Below, in pieces: positions 10,823 through 27,665 of a stretch of 36,216 nucleotides of DNA. How positions within the stretch are numbered: position 1 is the first letter of the stretch; every line of letters begins with the position of its first letter. Below the pieces are notes generated by a model. The model did not search any database. It worked only from the letters and a program-made list of their open reading frames with translations, and had not been told where the DNA came from. A program made the translations under genes and the position numbers. Source of the stretch: an uncultured Alphaproteobacteria bacterium (lineage in GTDB: Bacteria; Pseudomonadota; Alphaproteobacteria; CADEGL01); NCBI GenBank assembly GCA_902826885.1, contig CADEGL010000012.1:9315-45530 (forward strand), written 5' to 3'.

Positions 10823-11866
10823 CTAGCGGCTGGGCGCAGGCACGTCGCGCGGCGGCGCGCCCAGGCGGAAGCCTTGGGGCAGCGGGTCCTCCGGGTCCAG
10901 GATGAACTGGTGGAAGCCGGTCAGATACGCGCGGCCGGCCACGCGCGGCCGGACATAGATGATGTCGCCGCGCTTCTCCGCCGATACGGGCGTGCCCGAG
11001 AAATATGTCCCCAGCACACCTTCGAACTTGAGCGTCTTGCCGAGCGGCAGCTTGCCTTCGGCGTGGAGCAACGCGACCCGCGCGCTGGTGCCGGTGCCGC
11101 AAGGGCTGCGATCGAGCGCGCCGGGTGGCGCCACGATGGTCTGCTTGCAGTCGCCCGTGGCGATCTTGGCCGAGGTGTAAAGCGTCTGATAGCAGCGGTT
11201 GATATCGGGCCGCTGCGGATGTTGGATCTTGAGCTGCGCGTTCACCGCCGGAATGATCCGGTTCGCCATGGCGACCAATGGCCCTTCATGGGCCGGGCCG
11301 AGCGTGAGGCCCAACGCATCGGCGTCGATGAAGGCGTAGAAATCGCCGCCATAAGCGACATCGATCATCATCTTGCCGACGCCTTCGACCTCGATCGGCG
11401 CGCGGTGGTGCAGCACGAAGCTTTCCACGTTGACGAAGCTGGCCGCGCCGACCTTGCCATCCTTCACGTCCACTTCACACACCACCATGCCGGCCGGCGT
11501 GTCCAGGCGGACCGTCGTCTTGGGTTCGACCACCTTCACCATGCCGGTCGCGACCACCGTGGTGGCCGTGCCGATGATGCAGTGGCCGCACATGGGCACA
11601 TATTCGTCCTGCTCCATGATGACGACGGAAAAATCGGCATCCGGCACGCAGGGTGGAATCAACAAGACCGAGCACATCATGCCGTGGCCGCGCGGCTCGA
11701 AATTGAGCATGCGCCTGAGCCCGTCATCGTGCTTCCAAAGCCATTCGCGCTTGTCGAGCAGGGTTTTGCCGGGCGGGATCGGATAGCCGCCCGTGATCAC
11801 GCGGGTCGAATTGCCCTCGGTGTGGGAATCGACCGTCTGGATGGTGCGCCGGAAACTGCTGCTCAT
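10823..11866 (-). CDS. Proline racemase family protein, Cys/Cys type (probable 4-hydroxyproline 2-epimerase)
   Basis: 347 residues. Both catalytic cysteines are present: Cys93 in YVPMCGHCIIG and Cys256 in DRSPCGTGTSARVALLHAEG. They act as the two-base pair that inverts the substrate alpha-carbon. The N-terminus (IQTVDSHTEGNSTRVITGG) and the length match 4-hydroxyproline 2-epimerases and proline racemases. The epimerase is more common in proteobacterial catabolic loci, but sequence alone does not settle it. The ATG at 11866 is supported by GGAGAAGGG just upstream. The frame is open to 12724, but that stretch is antisense to the SDR gene. It converges on the Lrp-domain gene, with stops 7 bp apart, and is divergent from the SDR at 11978. 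The residue pair differs from the paralog at 1658-2716 (Ser/Cys). Confidence 0.88.
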   Translation of the reverse strand: MSSSFRRTIQTVDSHTEGNSTRVITGGYPIPPGKTLLDKREWLWKHDDGLRRMLNFEPRGHGMMCSVLLIPPCVPDADFSVVIMEQDEYVPMCGHCIIGTATTVVATGMVKVVEPKTTVRLDTPAGMVVCEVDVKDGKVGAASFVNVESFVLHHRAPIEVEGVGKMMIDVAYGGDFYAFIDADALGLTLGPAHEGPLVAMANRIIPAVNAQLKIQHPQRPDINRCYQTLYTSAKIATGDCKQTIVAPPGALDRSPCGTGTSARVALLHAEGKLPLGKTLKFEGVLGTYFSGTPVSAEKRGDIIYVRPRVAGRAYLTGFHQFILDPEDPLPQGFRLGAPPRDVPAPSR

Positions 11867-11977: not shown

Positions 11978-12745
11978 GTGGCTAAATCCAAACAGAAGTT
12001 GAAATCCGTCCTGATCACGGGCTCGGGCAGCGGCATCGGCGCGGCCATCGCGCGGCGCCTGGCGGCGCCCGGCGTGGGCATGGTGATCCACGCCTACAAG
12101 AACCGGAAAGGCTGCGAGCGCGTGGCCGCCGAGGTCCGCGCGAAAGGCGCGCAAGCGGTCGTGAAGCTGGCCGACCTGTCGGACGCCAAGGCCGCGCGCG
12201 GACTGGTCGACGCCACGGCAAAGGAATTCGGCGGGCTCGACGTGCTGGTCGCCAACGCGGGCTTCCCGGACCTGCGGGTCTGGGGCGACCTGGACCGCAA
12301 GGGTCTGGACTACTGCTTCAAGGTCATCACGGGCGGCCTGTTCGAGATGGCCACCCGCGCCATGCCGCATCTGAAGAAGGCCGGCGCGCGCGGACGCGTC
12401 GTGACCATCAGCACGCTGAACGCCCACGTCTTCCGCGCGACCTATCCGATCTATCCCGGTTCGGCCGCGGCCAAGGCCGGGCTGGAAGCCTTGACCCATA
12501 CGTTCGCGGTGCAGATGGCGCCCCACAAGGTGACCGTCAATTGCGTGGCGCCGGGCATCATCGAGAAGGACGCCGACACGATCCAGTTCTACAGCGATGC
12601 GGGCTGGGCGCCCTTGATCGCCAACGTGCCGCTGAAGCGCCTGGGCAAACAGGACGAGGTGGCCGCGATGGTGGCGTTCCTGTGCGGCCCGGATGCGTCT
12701 TACGTCACCAATCAGGTGATCCACGTCAACGGCGGCATCTGCTGA
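11978..12745 (+). CDS. Short-chain dehydrogenase/reductase lacking the catalytic Tyr
   Basis: 255 residues, starting at a GTG preceded by GGAGGGGG. The Rossmann cofactor motif TGSGSGIG (14-21), VANAG (Asn93) and the C-terminal NQVIHVNGGIC are classical SDR features, and Ser145 is in place in VVTIST. Where the family has YxxxK, this protein reads YPGSAAAKAGL. Lys166 is conserved, but the position four residues before it is Ser162. Tyr156 and Tyr159 are nearby, and the loop after Ser145 is about four residues longer than in FabG. The protein may be a reductase with a shifted proton donor, or a non-catalytic homolog. It precedes the four DHA2 transporter genes by 50 bp on the same strand and may share their transcript. 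Confidence 0.85.
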   Translation: MAKSKQKLKSVLITGSGSGIGAAIARRLAAPGVGMVIHAYKNRKGCERVAAEVRAKGAQAVVKLADLSDAKAARGLVDATAKEFGGLDVLVANAGFPDLRVWGDLDRKGLDYCFKVITGGLFEMATRAMPHLKKAGARGRVVTISTLNAHVFRATYPIYPGSAAAKAGLEALTHTFAVQMAPHKVTVNCVAPGIIEKDADTIQFYSDAGWAPLIANVPLKRLGKQDEVAAMVAFLCGPDASYVTNQVIHVNGGIC

Positions 12746-12795: not shown

Positions 12796-14331
12796 ATGAC
12801 GCAGGCTGCGGTCCCGGCGCCTCGCGCCTCGCTCCGCGGCATCGCCGTCATGGTGTCGGTGATCCTGGCCGGCACGGTCTACGAGATCAACATCACCATC
12901 GCCACGGTGGCCCTGCCGCATATGCAGGGCACCTTCGCCGCCACCCACGACCAGATCTCCTGGGTGGTCACCTCGTTCGTGCTGGGCATGACCATGGTGT
13001 TGGCCTGCTCGGGGTGGCTGGCCGACCGCTTCGGCCGCAAGCGCGTGTTCCTGGTCGGCACGATCGGCTTCACGCTGGCGTCCCTTCTGTGCGGCACGGC
13101 GACGTCGGTGGAGGAAGCCGTTCTGTGGCGCCTTCTACAGGGCGGCTTCGGCGCGCCTTTGATGCCGATCTCCCAGGCCATGACGCTGGACGCCTTCCCC
13201 AAGGAACAGCACGGCACGGCCAACACGATCTGGGGCATCGCCACCATGATCGGCCCGGCCATGGGACCCACCATCGGCGGCCTCTTGGTCGAACATCATT
13301 CCTGGCCTTGGACCTTCTATTTCGGCGTGCCGTTCGGCGCGGTCGCGGCCCTCGGCGTCTGGCTGCTGGTGCGGGAGGAGCCGCATCGCGCCGACCGGCC
13401 CATGGATTGGCTCGGATTCGCCACGCTGATCATCGTGGTGGGCATGCTTCAGTTCATCCTGAACCGCGGCGAGCGCCTCGATTGGTTCGAATCGACCGAG
13501 ATCGTCGTCGCGACGGCCCTGACCGCCGCGTCCCTCTATGTCTTCGTCGTCCACAGCACGCTGGCGCGGCACCCCTTCCTGGAACCGGCCATGTTTCGGG
13601 ACCGGAACTTCGCCATCGGGCTGTCCCTCACGTTCGTCTGGGGGTTCGTCCTGCACGGCAACATCGTGCTCGTTTCCTTGATGCTGCAAGAGCTGCGCGG
13701 CTTCCCCGTCGTCACGTTGGGAATGGTCATGTCGCCGCGCGGCATCGGCGTCATGGCCGGCATGGTGATCGGCAATTTCCTGCTCAAGCGCATGGACCCG
13801 CGCCTGATCCTGGCCGGCGGTTTCTCCATGATCGCCATGTCTTCCTGGGCCATGGCGGGCTGGACCAACGACGTCGAAGGGATAGACGTGCTGTGGACCG
13901 GCTTCCTGCAGGGCACGGGGACCGGCATGGGTTTCATTCCGCTCTTCGCCATGATGTTCGCGACGCTGGACGGACGGCATCGAACCGAGGGCATCACGAT
14001 GTTCAATCTGGTGCTGTTCACGGGCATCAGTTGCGGCATCGCGGTGGCGGTCAGCGTGCTAACCCGCAGCGCCAACATCAATCACGCCACCCTGGTCGAG
14101 CATATCTCGCGCTATAACGACGTGCTGAGCCAGCCGCGCGCGACCGGCGCATGGAACATGGTCACGCCGGGCGGCCTGGCCTCGATCGAGGCCGAGGTGA
14201 CGCGCCAGGCCACGATGATCGGCTATCTCAACAATTTCACCTTCATCGCCATCCTGGCCGCGATGGCGATCCCCTTCGTCCTTCTGTTCCGCCGCCCCCG
14301 CGACGGCGCGCCGTCTTCGGGAATGCACTGA
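12796..14331 (+). CDS. DHA2-family (EmrB/QacA-type) MFS transporter, copy 1 (type A)
   Basis: 511 residues with about 14 hydrophobic segments, as in DHA2 proton-coupled drug or anion exporters. TM1 ends INITIATVALPHMQGTF, with Asn32 where the family motif LDxTIVNVALP has Asp. Motif A is GWLADRFGRKRVF (Asp kept) and motif C in TM5 is GPAMGPTIGG. The stretch NRGERLDWFESTEI before the C-terminal half is shared by all four copies. Details such as HGTANTIWG and SWPWTFY group it with copy 4 rather than copies 2 and 3. The next gene starts three bases after its stop. No HlyD/EmrA adaptor gene is nearby, so its export route across the outer membrane, if any, is unknown. The ribosome binding site is weak. 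Confidence 0.92.
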   Translation: MTQAAVPAPRASLRGIAVMVSVILAGTVYEINITIATVALPHMQGTFAATHDQISWVVTSFVLGMTMVLACSGWLADRFGRKRVFLVGTIGFTLASLLCGTATSVEEAVLWRLLQGGFGAPLMPISQAMTLDAFPKEQHGTANTIWGIATMIGPAMGPTIGGLLVEHHSWPWTFYFGVPFGAVAALGVWLLVREEPHRADRPMDWLGFATLIIVVGMLQFILNRGERLDWFESTEIVVATALTAASLYVFVVHSTLARHPFLEPAMFRDRNFAIGLSLTFVWGFVLHGNIVLVSLMLQELRGFPVVTLGMVMSPRGIGVMAGMVIGNFLLKRMDPRLILAGGFSMIAMSSWAMAGWTNDVEGIDVLWTGFLQGTGTGMGFIPLFAMMFATLDGRHRTEGITMFNLVLFTGISCGIAVAVSVLTRSANINHATLVEHISRYNDVLSQPRATGAWNMVTPGGLASIEAEVTRQATMIGYLNNFTFIAILAAMAIPFVLLFRRPRDGAPSSGMH

Positions 14332-14334
14332 GCC

Positions 14335-15885
14335 ATGAGCATCGAGTCCATCAGGCTCAAGGGCGCGGCGCGGGGCGAATCGTTCCAACGCACGATGATC
14401 ATGGCCACCTGCATGCTGGCGGCCAGCATCTATTCGATGAACCTGACCATCGTCGCGATTTCCCTGCCGCACATGCAGGGCACGTTCTCGGCGACGCCGG
14501 ACCAGGTCTCCTGGGTCGTCACCGGCTTCATCCTGGGCCTGACCATGATGATCGCCTGTATCGGCTGGATCGCCGATCAGCTGGGGCGCAAGAAAGTCTA
14601 TCTGATCTGCTTGTGCGCGTTCATCTTCGCGTCCGTGATGTGCGGCAACGCGCATACGTTGGAAGAGGAGGTCTTGTGGCGCTTCCTGCAGGGCGTGTCG
14701 GGCGCGGGCATCCTGCCCCTGTCCCAATCGATCATTCTGGACGTCTATCCGCGCGAGCAGCACAGCCGCGTGCTGGGCATCTGGGGTTTGGGCAACATGG
14801 CGGGGCCGATCATCGCGCCGCCCATCGGCGGCATGATCACCGAGGCCTATAGCTGGCACAACGTCTTCGACATCAACATCCCCGCCGGCCTGATCGCGCT
14901 CCTAGGCGCGGTTCTTTTCGTCCCCTCGACGCCGCCGGCCCGGCGCGAACTGGACGTCGTGGGCGTCATCACGCTCGTCAGCGGATTGGGGCTGATCCAG
15001 CTCATGGTCAACCGCGGCGCGCGCCTGGACTGGTTCGAATCGACCGAAATCATCCTGGAACTGGTCGCGGGCTTGGCGCTGATCTACGTCTTCGTCATCC
15101 ATATCCTCACGACGCGGAAGCCGTTCCTGAACCCGGAGATCTTCCGCGACCGGAACTACGCTATCGGCATCATTCTGATCACCTCGTTCGGCGTCTTCTC
15201 GTTCCTGCCGGTCGTGATGCTGCCGCTGTTCATGCGCAACTTGATGGATTATCCCGTCCAGCTCATCGGCATCCTGCTGGTGCCGCGCGCGCTCGGTGTC
15301 GTGATCGGCAACCTGACGGTCTCGCGCCTGGTGCGCTATATCGACCCGCGCCACCTGATCACGCTGGGCCTCATCTGCACGATGTATTCCTCGTGGCACG
15401 TCTCGACCTGGACGCTGGATGTGAGCGTTTGGGAGATCGCGGTCAATGGCGTGTTCCAGGGCCTCGGCAACGGGCTGATCTATGTCACCGTCAACACGCT
15501 GACATTCTACGATCTGCCGCCCAAGCACCGCTCCCAGGCCGTGCCGCTGTTCTATTTGACGTTCAACATCGCGGCCAGCATCGGCATCGCGGGCTTCATC
15601 ACCTATTGGGTGCAGAGCACCCAAATCAATCACGCCGTTCTGACGGAACATATCTCGCCGTTCAACGAGCTGCTGCGCGACGGCTTCATGCCCAACGCCC
15701 GCGAACTGCACGCGGCGCGCGCGGCGGCTTTGAACCAGGAAATCACCCGCCAGGCGTCGTTGATCGGCTTCGAAATCTCTTTCCAGCTTGTCACCTTCGT
15801 CGCGTTGGCGACGATCCCGTTCGTGTATCTGATGCGCAACCCGTGGGCCAAGAAGCCGCTGGCCCCCAAGGCCAATACGGGATGA
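14335..15885 (+). CDS. DHA2-family MFS transporter, copy 2 (type B)
   Basis: 516 residues, about 14 TM segments. TM1 reads MNLTIVAISLPHMQGTF with Asn36 in the usual Asp position. Motif A is GWIADQLGRKKVY (Asp kept) and motif C is GPIIAPPIGG. The segment HTLEEEVLWRFLQGVSGAGILPLSQ and the periplasmic loop STQINHAVLTEHISPFN are very close to copy 3, so these two form subtype B. It starts three bases after copy 1 ends, and its TGA overlaps the ATG of copy 3 (ATGA). The substrate is unknown. DHA2 proteins export drugs, bile salts, siderophores or organic anions, usually with proton antiport. Confidence 0.92.
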   Translation: MSIESIRLKGAARGESFQRTMIMATCMLAASIYSMNLTIVAISLPHMQGTFSATPDQVSWVVTGFILGLTMMIACIGWIADQLGRKKVYLICLCAFIFASVMCGNAHTLEEEVLWRFLQGVSGAGILPLSQSIILDVYPREQHSRVLGIWGLGNMAGPIIAPPIGGMITEAYSWHNVFDINIPAGLIALLGAVLFVPSTPPARRELDVVGVITLVSGLGLIQLMVNRGARLDWFESTEIILELVAGLALIYVFVIHILTTRKPFLNPEIFRDRNYAIGIILITSFGVFSFLPVVMLPLFMRNLMDYPVQLIGILLVPRALGVVIGNLTVSRLVRYIDPRHLITLGLICTMYSSWHVSTWTLDVSVWEIAVNGVFQGLGNGLIYVTVNTLTFYDLPPKHRSQAVPLFYLTFNIAASIGIAGFITYWVQSTQINHAVLTEHISPFNELLRDGFMPNARELHAARAAALNQEITRQASLIGFEISFQLVTFVALATIPFVYLMRNPWAKKPLAPKANTG

Positions 15886-17390
15886 CCGCCGTCGCCGCCA
15901 ATACCGGGGGCGTCACGCGCCACCGCCCGGCGATCATGATGGTCACCATGATCGCGGCCAGCATCTACTCCTTGAATCTCACCATCGTCAGCATCTCCCT
16001 GCCGCATATGCAGGGCACCTTCTCGGCGACGCCCGACCAGATCGCCTGGGTCGTTACGGCCTTCATCGTCGGCATGACCACGATGATCGTCTGCACCGGC
16101 TGGCTCAGCGGGCGATTCGGACGGAAGCGGGTCTTCACCTTGTCGCTGACCGTCTTCACCGCGGCATCGCTGATGTGCGGCAACGTCCACACGCTTGAGG
16201 GCGAGGTGATGTGGCGCTTCCTGCAGGGCGTGGCGGGCGCCTCGATCATCCCCTTGTCCCAGGCCATCGCGGTCAGCGCCTACCCGGCCGATCAGCAGGG
16301 CAAGGCCATCGGCGTCTGGGGTATCGGCAACATGATCGGCCCCATCATCGCGCCGCCCATCGGCGGCTATCTGACGGAGCTCTACGGCTGGCCGACGGTG
16401 TTCTACATCAACCTGCCGCTCGGCCTCCTGGCCGTCGTGGGCGCGATCCTGTTCGTGCCCCACAGCGAGCCGGACCGCAGCCGCCGCTTCGACCTGGTGG
16501 GCTTCGCGGTCCTGGTCGTCTCGGTCGTCTCGCTCCAGCTCATGCTCAACCGCGGCACGCGGCTGGATTGGTTCGACGCCACCGAGATCATCGTCGAGGC
16601 CGCGCTGGCCGCGCTGTTCTTCTACATCTTCCTGGTCCACGCCTTCACCGCGCGGAATCCGATCCTGCGGCCCGAGATGTTCATGGATCGCAACTACGCG
16701 GGCTGCCTTATGGTCGCCTTCGGCTTCGGCATGCAGGTGTTCCTGCCCACGATCCTGCTGCCGCTGATGCTCAAGAATCTGCGCGGCTATCCCATCGAGA
16801 TGATCGGCCTTTTGCTCGCGCCGCGCGCGGTCGGCGTTCTGGCCGGCAACCTGGTTGCGGGCTATCTCACCTCGCGCTTCCAGCCGAAATACCTGGCCGT
16901 CATCGGCTTCATCGGCGTTGCGGGCTCATCCTGGTTTATGTCGCGCTGGACGTTGGACGTCGGACCGTGGGACGTGGCGTGGACCGGCATCATGCAGGGA
17001 TTTTTCTCATCCCTCATCTTCGTGCCGGTGGCGTCCCACGCTTTCTCGACCTTGTCCCTGCGCTACCGCGAGGAGGCCATCCCGGTCTTCTATCTGATCC
17101 TCAATTTGGGCGGCAGCCTGGGCATCGCGGGCATCATCACCTATTGGACGGCCAGCACCCAGTTCAACCACGCGGTCCTGTCCGAACACGTCTCGATCTT
17201 CAACCCCATGTACCGGTTCCTGCCGGACGCGTGGAGCCCCGAGCGCAGCCCCACCGCCGCCGCGCTCGACCTGGAGATCATGCGGCAGGCCTCGATGATC
17301 GCCTACAACGACTGCTTCACCATGATCATGTTCGTGACGCTCTTATCCGCGCCCGCTGCGCTGCTGATACGGCGCCGCGAGCGGAAATGA
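15882..17390 (+). CDS. DHA2-family MFS transporter, copy 3 (type B)
   Basis: 502 residues, the shortest of the four. I chose the ATG at 15882 because it overlaps the stop of copy 2 (ATGA) and yields a normal N-terminus just before TM1. The frame is open further back to 15393, inside copy 2, and that part is not transporter sequence. TM1 reads LNLTIVSISLPHMQGTF with Asn32 in the usual Asp position. Motif A is GWLSGRFGRKRVF, so the motif A Asp is Gly here. Motif C is GPIIAPPIGG, as in copy 2. It is followed by copy 4 with another ATGA overlap, so the array is translationally coupled from copy 2 to copy 4. Confidence 0.92.
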   Translation: MTAVAANTGGVTRHRPAIMMVTMIAASIYSLNLTIVSISLPHMQGTFSATPDQIAWVVTAFIVGMTTMIVCTGWLSGRFGRKRVFTLSLTVFTAASLMCGNVHTLEGEVMWRFLQGVAGASIIPLSQAIAVSAYPADQQGKAIGVWGIGNMIGPIIAPPIGGYLTELYGWPTVFYINLPLGLLAVVGAILFVPHSEPDRSRRFDLVGFAVLVVSVVSLQLMLNRGTRLDWFDATEIIVEAALAALFFYIFLVHAFTARNPILRPEMFMDRNYAGCLMVAFGFGMQVFLPTILLPLMLKNLRGYPIEMIGLLLAPRAVGVLAGNLVAGYLTSRFQPKYLAVIGFIGVAGSSWFMSRWTLDVGPWDVAWTGIMQGFFSSLIFVPVASHAFSTLSLRYREEAIPVFYLILNLGGSLGIAGIITYWTASTQFNHAVLSEHVSIFNPMYRFLPDAWSPERSPTAAALDLEIMRQASMIAYNDCFTMIMFVTLLSAPAALLIRRRERK

Positions 17391-18922
17391 GCAACCCGCT
17401 CCAAGCTCTCTACGCATCGCCGCTCAAGCGGTGGCTGGTCATCCTGTCCGTGATGATCCCGTCCGCCGTCTATGTTCTGGACCTGACTGTCGTGACCGTG
17501 GCCTTGCCGCATATGCAGGGCACCTTCTCCGCGACCTACGACCAGATCTCCTGGGTGGTCACCTCCTACATCGTGGGCGGCACGATCGTGACCGGCTGCT
17601 CGGGCTGGGCCAGCACGCGCTTCGGCCGCAAGGAAGTGTTCTTCGTCTCCTGCGCGGCCTTCACCGTGGCCTCGATCTTCTGCGGCATGGCGACGACGCT
17701 GGAATCCGAGGTTGCGTGGCGCGCGCTGCAAGGCTTCTTCGGCGCGCCGATCCTGCCGCTCTCGCAGTCCGTCATGCTCGACCTGTACCCGAAGGAACGG
17801 CACGGCACGGCCAACTCGATCTGGGGCATGGGCATCCTCTTGGGGCCCGTTCTAGGCCCCACCATCGGCGGCTACATGACCGAGGAATACAGCTGGCCCT
17901 GGGCATTCTACGTCAACGTGCCGTTCATGCTGCTGCCGTTGCTCGGCATCCTCCTGTTCGTGCCGCGCACGGCGCGCAACAGCGGACATGGGCTCGACTG
18001 GTTCGGCTTCATCGCGCTGTGCGTCGGCATGGGTGCCTTGCAGCTCATGCTCAACCGCGGCGAGCGGCAGGATTGGTTCGCCTCGCCCGAGATCATCCTC
18101 GAGGCCGTGCTGGCCGCGGTCGCGCTCTACATTTTCGTCGTGCATATCCTCACGGGGCGAAAGCCGTTCGTCCCACCGGCCATCTTCGCCAACTGGAACT
18201 ACAGTCTGGGGCTGCTCTTCGTGATCATCTTCGCCTTCGTGCTGCAATCGCCCATCGTGCTTCTGTCGCTGTTCTTCCAGGATTTGGGCGGCTATCCAGT
18301 GATGACGGTCGGTCTATTGCTGACGCCGCGCGGCCTCGGCGCCTTCACCTCGATGTTCCTGGGCGGCCTCCTGATCGCGCGCATGGATGCGCGGCTGGTC
18401 ATGGCGGCCGGCTTCGTATGCTTCGGGTTCTCGGCCTACCTCATCGCGGGCTGGACGACCGAGGTCAGTGCCTGGCAGGTGGCCTGGACCGGCATCCTGC
18501 AAGGCTTCGGGTCCGGCCTTGTGTGGGTGCCGATGGGCACCTTGGCCGTGGCCACACTCACCCCGCGCCTGCGCGACGAATCCCTGGCGTTCTTCCACAT
18601 GATGTTCAACGTCGGCGCCAGCTTGGGCATCATCACCATGATCAACCTCGCCCTGCGCACCTCGGTTTCGATGCACGCCTCGCTGACGGAATACGTCACC
18701 CGCTTCAACCAGGTCTTCAAGGGCGCCGTGCTGCCCAACCTGTGGAGCTTCAGCTCGCCCTCGGGCCTGGCGACCCTCAACCTGGAGATCACGCGGCAAT
18801 CCGGAATCGTGGGTTACAACAACTGCTTCTATGCCATCGCCGCCATCTCCTTGGCCGCGATTCCGCTGTGTTTTCTGCTGCGCCGCGGCGCTGGCGGCCA
18901 GGGGGTCGGGCACGTCGGCTAG
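17387..18922 (+). CDS. DHA2-family MFS transporter, copy 4 (type A)
   Basis: 511 residues, the same length as copy 1. TM1 reads LDLTVVTVALPHMQGTF, and Asp32 makes this the only one of the four with the canonical TM1 acid. Motif A is GWASTRFGRKEVF (Asp replaced by Thr) and motif C is GPVLGPTIGG. HGTANSIWG, YSWPWAFY and TYDQISWVVTS match copy 1 closely. The start is fixed by the 4-bp overlap with the stop of copy 3. The C-terminal tail is short and Gly/Arg-rich. The array ends here; a promoter-like element at 18925-18953 separates it from the aminotransferase gene. Confidence 0.92.
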   Translation: MSNPLQALYASPLKRWLVILSVMIPSAVYVLDLTVVTVALPHMQGTFSATYDQISWVVTSYIVGGTIVTGCSGWASTRFGRKEVFFVSCAAFTVASIFCGMATTLESEVAWRALQGFFGAPILPLSQSVMLDLYPKERHGTANSIWGMGILLGPVLGPTIGGYMTEEYSWPWAFYVNVPFMLLPLLGILLFVPRTARNSGHGLDWFGFIALCVGMGALQLMLNRGERQDWFASPEIILEAVLAAVALYIFVVHILTGRKPFVPPAIFANWNYSLGLLFVIIFAFVLQSPIVLLSLFFQDLGGYPVMTVGLLLTPRGLGAFTSMFLGGLLIARMDARLVMAAGFVCFGFSAYLIAGWTTEVSAWQVAWTGILQGFGSGLVWVPMGTLAVATLTPRLRDESLAFFHMMFNVGASLGIITMINLALRTSVSMHASLTEYVTRFNQVFKGAVLPNLWSFSSPSGLATLNLEITRQSGIVGYNNCFYAIAAISLAAIPLCFLLRRGAGGQGVGHVG

Positions 18923-18991: not shown

Positions 18992-19921
18992 GTGGCCCAG
19001 CTTTCCAACGAGCGTGTCGCCTACATCAACGGCAAGGTCGTGCCGGAGAGCCAAGCCTTGGTTTCGTTCCGGGACCGCAGTTTCACCTACGGCGATGCCG
19101 TGTTCGACACCACGCGCACCTTCGCCCACAAGATGTTCAAGGTGAAAGAGCATATCGACCGGCTCTACCGCTCGCTGCGTTATGTCCAGATCGACCCCGG
19201 CATTTCGCCGTCGGAGCTCGCGAAAATCAGCGAGGAGGTTTGCGAGCGCAACCTGCACCTGATCGGCAAGGACGAGGATTACTGGGTCACCCAGCGCATC
19301 TCGCGCGGCGTCGACGTGCCGGGCGATGAGTTCACCGCCCACTCCGGCCCGACCGTGATCGTGGAGTGCCGCCCCCTGCCCTTGAAGGCGCGCGCCAAGC
19401 TGTTCCGCGACGGCATTCGCATCGTGGTGCCTTCCGTGCGCCGCGCCCCCGCGCAATCGTTCAGCCCGCGTGCGAAGAGCCACAACTACCTGAACCTGAT
19501 CATGGCCGACCTCGAGGCCCGCTCGCAGGACAAGGAAGCCTGGGCCGTGCTGCTCGATCTCGACGGCAACGTGACCGAGGGCATGGGCAGCAACTACTTC
19601 ATGGTTCAGGACGGCCGCCTGATGACGCCGCGCGCGAAAAACGTGCTACCCGGCATCAGCCGCCAGACCGTGATCGACATGGCGGCCAAGCTGGGCATCC
19701 CGTTCGAAGAGAGGGACCTCGACCAGTACGACATGCTGACCGCGGACGAAGCGTTCCTGACCTCGACCAGCCTGTGCATTTGCCCCGTCTCCAGCGTCAA
19801 CGGCGCGAAGGTGGGCGACGGCAAGGTCCCCGGCCCGGTCACGCAGAAGCTCTGCAAGGCCTATTCGGAATTCGTGAACTTCGACTTCGTGGCCCAGTAT
19901 CTCAGGCACCTCAAGGCCTGA
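18992..19921 (+). CDS. Class IV PLP aminotransferase (branched-chain or D-amino-acid type)
   Basis: 309 residues from a GTG start, with GGGGGA upstream. The fold-type IV pattern is clear: RDRSFTYGDAVFDTTRTF near the N-terminus, the PLP Lys162 in SPRAKSHNYLNLI, NVTEGMGSNYFMV (the conserved Glu and the phosphate-cup region), LPGISRQTVIDMA, and FLTSTSLCICPV. Family members transfer amino groups between branched-chain amino acids, D-amino acids or amines and 2-oxo acids; 4-amino-4-deoxychorismate lyase is a further relative. The following LIV-type importer fits a branched-chain or other amino acid substrate. It lies 31 bp ahead of the binding-protein gene and probably shares its transcript. I give no gene symbol because ilvE and dat cannot be separated by eye. 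Confidence 0.88.
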   Translation: MAQLSNERVAYINGKVVPESQALVSFRDRSFTYGDAVFDTTRTFAHKMFKVKEHIDRLYRSLRYVQIDPGISPSELAKISEEVCERNLHLIGKDEDYWVTQRISRGVDVPGDEFTAHSGPTVIVECRPLPLKARAKLFRDGIRIVVPSVRRAPAQSFSPRAKSHNYLNLIMADLEARSQDKEAWAVLLDLDGNVTEGMGSNYFMVQDGRLMTPRAKNVLPGISRQTVIDMAAKLGIPFEERDLDQYDMLTADEAFLTSTSLCICPVSSVNGAKVGDGKVPGPVTQKLCKAYSEFVNFDFVAQYLRHLKA

Positions 19922-26171: not shown

Positions 26172-27665
26172 TCATTTCATCGTCGGCATGATGAACTCGG
26201 CGCCCGCGCGGATACCCGTGGGCCAGCGCGAGGTCACCGTCTTGGTCTTGGTGTAAAAGCGCACGCCTTCCGGTCCATAGGCGTTCATGTCGCCGAACAA
26301 GGAGCGCTTCCAGCCGCCGAAGCTGTGGAAGGCCACCGGCACGGGGATCGGCACGTTCACGCCCACCATGCCCACCTTGCACTGGGTGGAATAGGCACGC
26401 GCGGCGTCGCCGTCGCGGGTGAAGATGGCCGTGCCGTTGCCGTATTCGTGATCGTTGACGAGCTTCAGCGCCTGATTGAAATCGGGCACGCGCATGACCG
26501 ACAGAACGGGGCCGAAGATTTCCTCTTTGTAGATGCGCATCTCGGGCTTCACATCGTCGAACAGGCAGCCGCCGATGAAGAAGCCCTTCTCATAGCCCTG
26601 CATCTTGAAATCGCGCCCGTCGACGACCAGCTTGGCGCCTTCCTTGACGCCCACATCGACATAGCCGCGCACCTTGTCCAGGTGCGTTTTGGTCACCAGC
26701 GGCCCCATCTCGACCTCGGGGTCCGTGCCCGGCCCGATTTTCAGCGCGCGCACGCGCGGGACCAGGCGCTCCATCAGCGCATCGCCCGCCTTGCCGACCG
26801 CGACCGCGACCGAGATCGCCATGCAACGCTCGCCGGCCGAGCCATAGCCAGCACCCATCAGCGCGTCGGTGGCCTGATCCATGTCGGCGTCCGGCATGAT
26901 GACCATGTGGTTCTTGGCGCCGCCAAGCGCCTGCACGCGCTTATTGTGCGCGGCGCCCGTGTGATAGACGTACTCGGCGATCGGCGTGGAGCCCACGAAG
27001 CTCACGGCCTGGATGCGCGGGTCGGTCAGGATCGCATCCACCGACTCCTTGTCGCCATGAACGACGTTCAAGACGCCGTCCGGCAAACCGGCTTCCTTCG
27101 CCAATTCCGCGAGGCGCACGCTGCAGCTCGGATCGCGCTCGGACGGCTTCAGGACGAAGGTGTTGCCCGTGGCGATCGCGACCGGGAACATCCACATCGG
27201 CACCATGGCCGGGAAATTGAACGGGGTGATGCCCGCGCAGACGCCCAGCGGCTGGCGCATCGCCCAGCTGTCGACGTTGGTGCCCACGTTCTCGCTGAAC
27301 TCGCCCTTGAGCAGGTGGGGGATGCCGCAGACGAACTCAACCACTTCCAAGCCGCGGATCACCGAACCCTTGGCGTCGCTGAGAACCTTGCCGTGCTCGG
27401 CGGTGATGATGGCCGCCAGCTCGTCCATGTGCTGTTCGATCAGGGTCTTGAACTTGAACATGACCCGGGCGCGCACGAGCGGCGGTGTCGCGGCCCATTT
27501 CGGGAAAGCGGCCTCGGCGGCGGCCACGGCCTGGCCGACCTCTTCTTTATTGGCCAGGCTGACCTTCTTCGCCACCTCGCCCGTCGCCGGGTTGAAGACA
27601 TCGCCGTACCGGCCACTGCGCCCCTTCACGGTCTTGCCGTTGATGAAATGCTCGATAGTGCTCAT
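26172..27665 (-). CDS. mmsA: CoA-acylating methylmalonate-semialdehyde dehydrogenase
   Basis: 497 residues, the standard length. It oxidises methylmalonate or malonate semialdehyde to propionyl-CoA or acetyl-CoA with NAD+, in valine, beta-alanine or inositol breakdown. It shows the MMSDH N-terminus ([28 protein letters not shown]), [47 protein letters not shown], and the nucleophile Cys281 in [11 protein letters not shown]. MMSDHs replace the general-base Glu of hydrolytic ALDHs with Asn (here ALGGAKNH), which fits. The ATG is backed by GGAGGA. On the minus strand TATAAG (27733-27728) could be its -10 element. The nearby LIV importer and aminotransferase suit valine breakdown, but the same enzyme also serves other pathways. 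Confidence 0.93.

Follow-up and report, generated by a model that had tools for sequence, protein, structure and literature searches.

Two transporters of the DHA2 family, EfpA of mycobacteria and QacA of staphylococci, have a fold of 14 transmembrane (TM) segments, work without an adaptor, and are encoded by single genes with studied substrates. EmrB of E. coli belongs instead to the EmrAB-TolC pump, which has been solved with a single copy of EmrB (TolC:EmrA:EmrB 3:6:1; PMC13139468). Within EmrB, R109 and Q112 are the partners of D29; either D29N or R109A abolishes resistance, and R406 helps close the cytoplasmic gate (PMC13139468). Pumps with D29N/D221N still gave antiport in vesicles (PMC13139468). 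There are also loci in other Alphaproteobacteria with more than one EmrB gene (L152:500-5468, L160:3541-8419 and L162:1698-6414), each with a single EmrA gene flanked by two intact EmrB genes, so that one adaptor may serve both.

The array considered here lies in a stretch of 36,216 nucleotides (the window) from an uncultured alphaproteobacterium, whose genome, G000, comes to 3.9 Mb in 134 contigs. Positions 12796-18922 of the + strand hold four intact EmrB/DHA2 open reading frames, each with an ATG start: copy 1 (12796-14331, 511 aa), copy 2 (14335-15885, 516 aa), copy 3 (15882-17390, 502 aa), and copy 4 (17387-18922, 511 aa). A gap of 3 bp separates copy 1 from copy 2, and the junctions of copies 2 and 3 and of copies 3 and 4 are ATGA overlaps. 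The initial annotation had given the same coordinates, lengths, gap, and overlaps, and the reading frames bear it out. That the four genes are stoichiometrically coupled, as it also stated, is not supported: overlaps of the ATGA kind suggest that translation of the array genes is coupled, not that their products have a set stoichiometry. A scan for promoters and terminators found no excess over shuffled sequence.

Membership in the EmrB subfamily was judged by a profile search with NCBIfam TIGR00711, whose curated cut-off of 230.2 bits is exceeded by copies 1 to 4 with scores of 322.6, 319.8, 322.6, and 333.9 bits. Structural models of copy 2 (pLDDT 89.4) and copy 4 (pLDDT 86.7) predict the 14-TM DHA2 fold, which copies 1 and 3 probably share by homology. 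For both models the best match is EmrB itself (PDB 8zal/8zar; Z 42-43), the chain 8zal_J aligning with copy 2 over 487 residues at 2.6 A (Z 41.7) and with copy 4 over 488 residues at 2.0 A (Z 43.4). EfpA and QacA match at Z 36-42 but are only 18-23% identical to copies 2 and 4 in the structural alignments. The likeness to E. coli EmrB extends to R109, to Q112, to the DRG/NRG-DWF-EI element, and to a TM11-TM12 insert of PEHB length. The array differs in having no adjoining EmrA gene and in bringing four different copies together in one probable operon. The sequence motifs first quoted for the four copies are present as described, but two of them, LPHMQGTF and NRG-R-DWF---EI, are not specific to the array: E. 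coli EmrB reads DRGKELDWFSSQEI at these sites, and LPHMQG is also common to relatives in other taxa.

The genome collection contains four close relatives of G000, one in the same genus (G001) and three in the same family (G002-G004). Orthologs of copies 1, 2, 3, and 4 are found in the same order in G001, at identities of 88, 94, 94, and 96%, and in G002, representing a second genus, at 59, 67, 66, and 75%. Each array gene in these two genomes is most similar to its positional counterpart in G000, and the start/stop overlaps between copies 2 and 3 and between copies 3 and 4 are kept (ATGA/GTGA). Every copy forms a clade of its own with its G001 and G002 orthologs, with support of 98-100 in one tree and 100/99 or better in a second. 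An assembly artefact is ruled out by the common gene order in the assemblies of three genomes, and pseudogenes are ruled out by the open frames and by dN/dS ratios between G000 and G001 of 0.14, 0.08, 0.10, and 0.06 for copies 1 to 4, all of which are under purifying selection. Recent tandem amplification is likewise excluded, because ordered orthologs and a separate clade for each copy are found in two genera. The initial annotation had argued against recent, unselected amplification and had suggested a phylogeny containing all four copies, and on both points the outcome agrees with it: the nearest neighbors of the copies are their positional orthologs in G001 and G002, not each other, and the array is old and maintained by selection. 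The copies are most likely ancient paralogs that arose by expansion within a single uncultured family of Alphaproteobacteria.

It might be thought that the four are redundant exporters, kept for the amount of transporter they supply and not for different roles, as they share a fold, a family, and probably an operon. This is highly improbable. The copies are only 40-52% identical to one another, they differ in residues at key positions, and each lineage arose before the two genera separated.

The four copies had been sorted at first into two types in the order A-B-B-A. The B half of that division stands, since copies 2 and 3 fall in a family-specific clade of 16 sequences with support of 100/100. 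A clean pair of A copies is not supported: copies 1 and 4 come together only as part of a group that includes other paralogs, with support of 80 in the first tree and 86/79 in the second. Because they sit in so weak a group and in such company, type A is probably a grade, retaining older forms of the motifs.

A gene for an SDR-family dehydrogenase of 255 aa (11978-12745, + strand, GTG start; Pfam adh_short_C2, 2.2e-49) ends 50 bp before copy 1. All five genomes of the family have an ortholog directly in front of the array (95, 82, 69, and 70% identical), and in G003 and in G004 two SDR genes stand there. No SDR gene adjoins any other DHA2 locus among those examined. I regard the SDR gene as the probable first gene of an operon with the four copies. 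It had been overlooked in the initial annotation, as had the other DHA2 arrays of the family and the loss of canonical EmrB residues, to both of which I return below.

The remaining neighbors are kept less widely. A class IV aminotransferase gene (18992-19921, + strand; Pfam Aminotran_4, 5.1e-49) flanks the array outside the core and, judged by synteny in the relatives, is kept downstream of it only in G001 and G002. Together with the downstream Liv-type ABC genes and an upstream gene of the proline-racemase family, it is conserved in G000-G002 only, and the core is therefore taken to be the SDR gene plus the array. An attempt to read function from gene context was rejected: the aminotransferase/Liv and proline-racemase genes are not kept in G003 and G004, and so no substrate is inferred from them. 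The window at large also holds two proline-racemase-family genes (1658-2716 and 10823-11866, both - strand), an enolase-superfamily gene (322-1491, + strand), and an aldehyde dehydrogenase (26172-27665, - strand), which along with the class IV aminotransferase and the Liv-type ABC system give it the look of a region for catabolism of amino acids or hydroxyproline. Inverted repeats of the CTTCGAC-GCTCAGG type, which resemble REP-like elements, separate the first array gene of G003 from the second (L053:11200-11370), and such repeats also follow a pair of DHA2 genes on contig C43 of G001 (L061:3636-3740).

How unusual is the gene order? Among 80 loci taken from a search across the species genomes of bacteria and archaea, EmrB genes stand directly next to each other only in this alphaproteobacterial family; at four other loci two EmrB genes are separated by about 1.9 kb, within which an EmrA gene lies. 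Surveys that scored the top 5 or 9 candidates of each genome, and which may miss pairs of weaker homologs, list no directly adjacent strong matches among the best candidates of 60 other alphaproteobacterial genomes (E <= 1e-100) or of 48 other Pseudomonadota genomes (E <= 1e-80). An adjacent pair of weaker homologs does occur on contig C35 of one genome (G015), which means that adjacency of DHA2 genes is not in itself unique. With no direct adjacency among the strong matches of the surveyed genomes, the arrangement can be called rare and seems specific to this lineage. A search of the literature, subscription papers being outside its coverage, turned up nothing relevant on tandem MFS arrays.

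Looking for adjacent DHA2 genes in other genomes, as had been suggested at the outset, brought to light the pair at G015 C35 and, within the family itself, further arrays: pairs at G000 C54/G001 C43 and at G003 C10/G004 C72, and a trio at G002 C107. These arrays of the family resemble the present one in having adjacent EmrB-like genes, no adaptor, and neither D221 nor R406, but they have fewer copies, and their junctions are longer gaps with no overlap of the ATGA type. The trio is found at L058:6216-10972 and the pairs at L057, L061, L059, and L060. One DHA2 gene on G001 C43 (L061:420-1965) is read in two frames (420-857 and 628-1965), through a frameshift or a sequencing error, and its G000 ortholog is intact. 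Two metagenome bins bear the names 'Rhizobium sp. Q54' (L090) and 'Bordetella parapertussis' (L118); L090 is the same as G002, and its label appears wrong.

The array is a real, conserved, lineage-specific variant of the EmrB type, a rare gene order in a well-known protein family. More interesting than the gene order are the changes in residues. In EmrB numbering, copies 1 and 3 have Asn29, Asn221, and Leu406, copy 2 has Asn29, Asn221, and Phe406, and copy 4 retains Asp29 along with Asn221 and Phe406. The equivalents of R109 and Q112 are kept in all four. Compared with E. coli EmrB, then, Asp221 and the gate residue Arg406 are replaced in every copy, and the Asp29/Arg109/Gln112 network is incomplete in three of them, where D29 is replaced by Asn. 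The pattern is the same in G000-G002 and is followed by the array members of G003 and G004, Asp29 occurring only in copy 4.

Across the five genomes of the family, D29, D221, and R406 are all kept in the adaptor-paired EmrBs (7 of 7), whereas neither D221 nor R406 is kept in any of the 48 other EmrB-like sequences, which have no adaptor. It is too much to make of this a general rule that D221 and R406 are lost wherever the adaptor is missing: outside the family, 14 of 17 homologs with no visible adaptor keep both. An independent-pairs test of adaptor absence against residue loss gave no significance and had no power. The contrast is phylogenetically clustered. Asn29 is absent from 74 homologs outside the family, where Thr, Ala, or Ser occur. 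As copies 1-3 are without D29 and all four are without D221 and R406, the sequences suggest that substrate range and coupling have probably been altered relative to canonical EmrB.

That the locus has no adaptor protein, as first noted, is true locally: neither the window nor the array locus of any of the four relatives contains an EmrA homolog. Elsewhere in G000, on contigs C1 and C3, EmrA homologs adjoin two other EmrBs. (What looks like a deletion in the C3 EmrB is a stretch of unknown bases.) EmrA-like genes are present in all five genomes of the family, as are outer-membrane channels (PF02321), and one might suppose that the copies dock in trans on EmrAs encoded elsewhere, forming interchangeable tripartite pumps with TolC-type channels. 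The PEHB region, which docks EmrA in EmrB, is of similar, normal length in copies 1-4, where the models give it just a short central helix, and that length may permit docking in trans. The extended TM11/TM12 bundle seen in both models speaks for the same idea, as does the single emrA between two emrB genes at L152, L160, and L162. At those loci D29, D221, and R406 are intact. Trans-docking is nonetheless unlikely, in my judgment: each close EmrA homolog already stands beside a canonical EmrB of its own, and D29N, the natural condition of copies 1-3, abolishes the resistance given by the tripartite pump of E. coli (PMC13139468).

The initial annotation had also raised a hetero-oligomeric exporter. 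At least two of the copies would then form one complex, in which copy 4, with its Asp29, might for instance be the coupled subunit. Two genera keep the gene order and the overlaps exactly, which would suit such a complex, as would the retention of Asp29 by copy 4 alone in every genome of the family, and dimers of the DHA2 protein EfpA have been seen, possibly as an effect of purification (PMC11961569). It is a third genus, that of G003 and G004, that tells against it. The array of G003 reads SDR-SDR-A-B-B-A, running to the end of its contig, and its third array gene is of type B but divergent and lacks a close ortholog. No ortholog of that gene was found in G004, a genome 87% complete in which the array is split over contigs; there the ortholog of the second G003 gene, a B copy, overlaps (ATGA) directly into the last A gene. 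The true ortholog of copy 2 stands alone on other contigs in both G003 and G004. The set of array genes is thus fixed in G000-G002 and different in G003 and G004, where membership is flexible, apparently with fewer members in G004 (the 87% complete genome with the split array), and this argues against an obligate complex of four subunits. Since the members of the array vary across the family and the EmrAB-TolC pump contains EmrB as a monomer (PMC13139468), a fixed heteromer is unlikely, and I would call a hetero-oligomer of two or more copies very unlikely. The more elaborate form of the idea, in which copy 4 with its TM1 carboxylate drives transport and copies 1-3, as natural D29N proteins, give substrate specificity, is harder still to credit.

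I propose that the array, accompanied by an SDR gene, encodes diverged EmrB-type transporters that are expressed together, act independently, and have no adaptor, which is the best reading of the evidence and a likely one. The SDR gene and the four genes for inner-membrane transporters would be carried on a single transcript, with the tight start/stop overlaps serving joint expression. Each transporter would act alone, as a monomeric secondary exporter, moving its substrate from the cytoplasm or inner leaflet to the periplasm without an EmrA of its own, and the copies would have specialised after duplication, with a change in coupling. Division of labor, the other possibility raised at first, fits this proposal, in that the copies represent separate lineages of long standing and differ among themselves at position 29. 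One point against independent exporters is that G000-G002 have exactly four copies in the same order, which independence does not strictly require.

The work on EmrAB-TolC left open the roles of D29, D221, and R406, in that D29N kills resistance while antiport persists in D29N/D221N (PMC13139468). This family supplies natural variants of the EmrB scaffold that have no adaptor and lack D29, D221, or R406. Copies 1-4 are thus a ready set for comparison, both for the roles of these residues and for the way EmrB-type proteins function when no adaptor is present.
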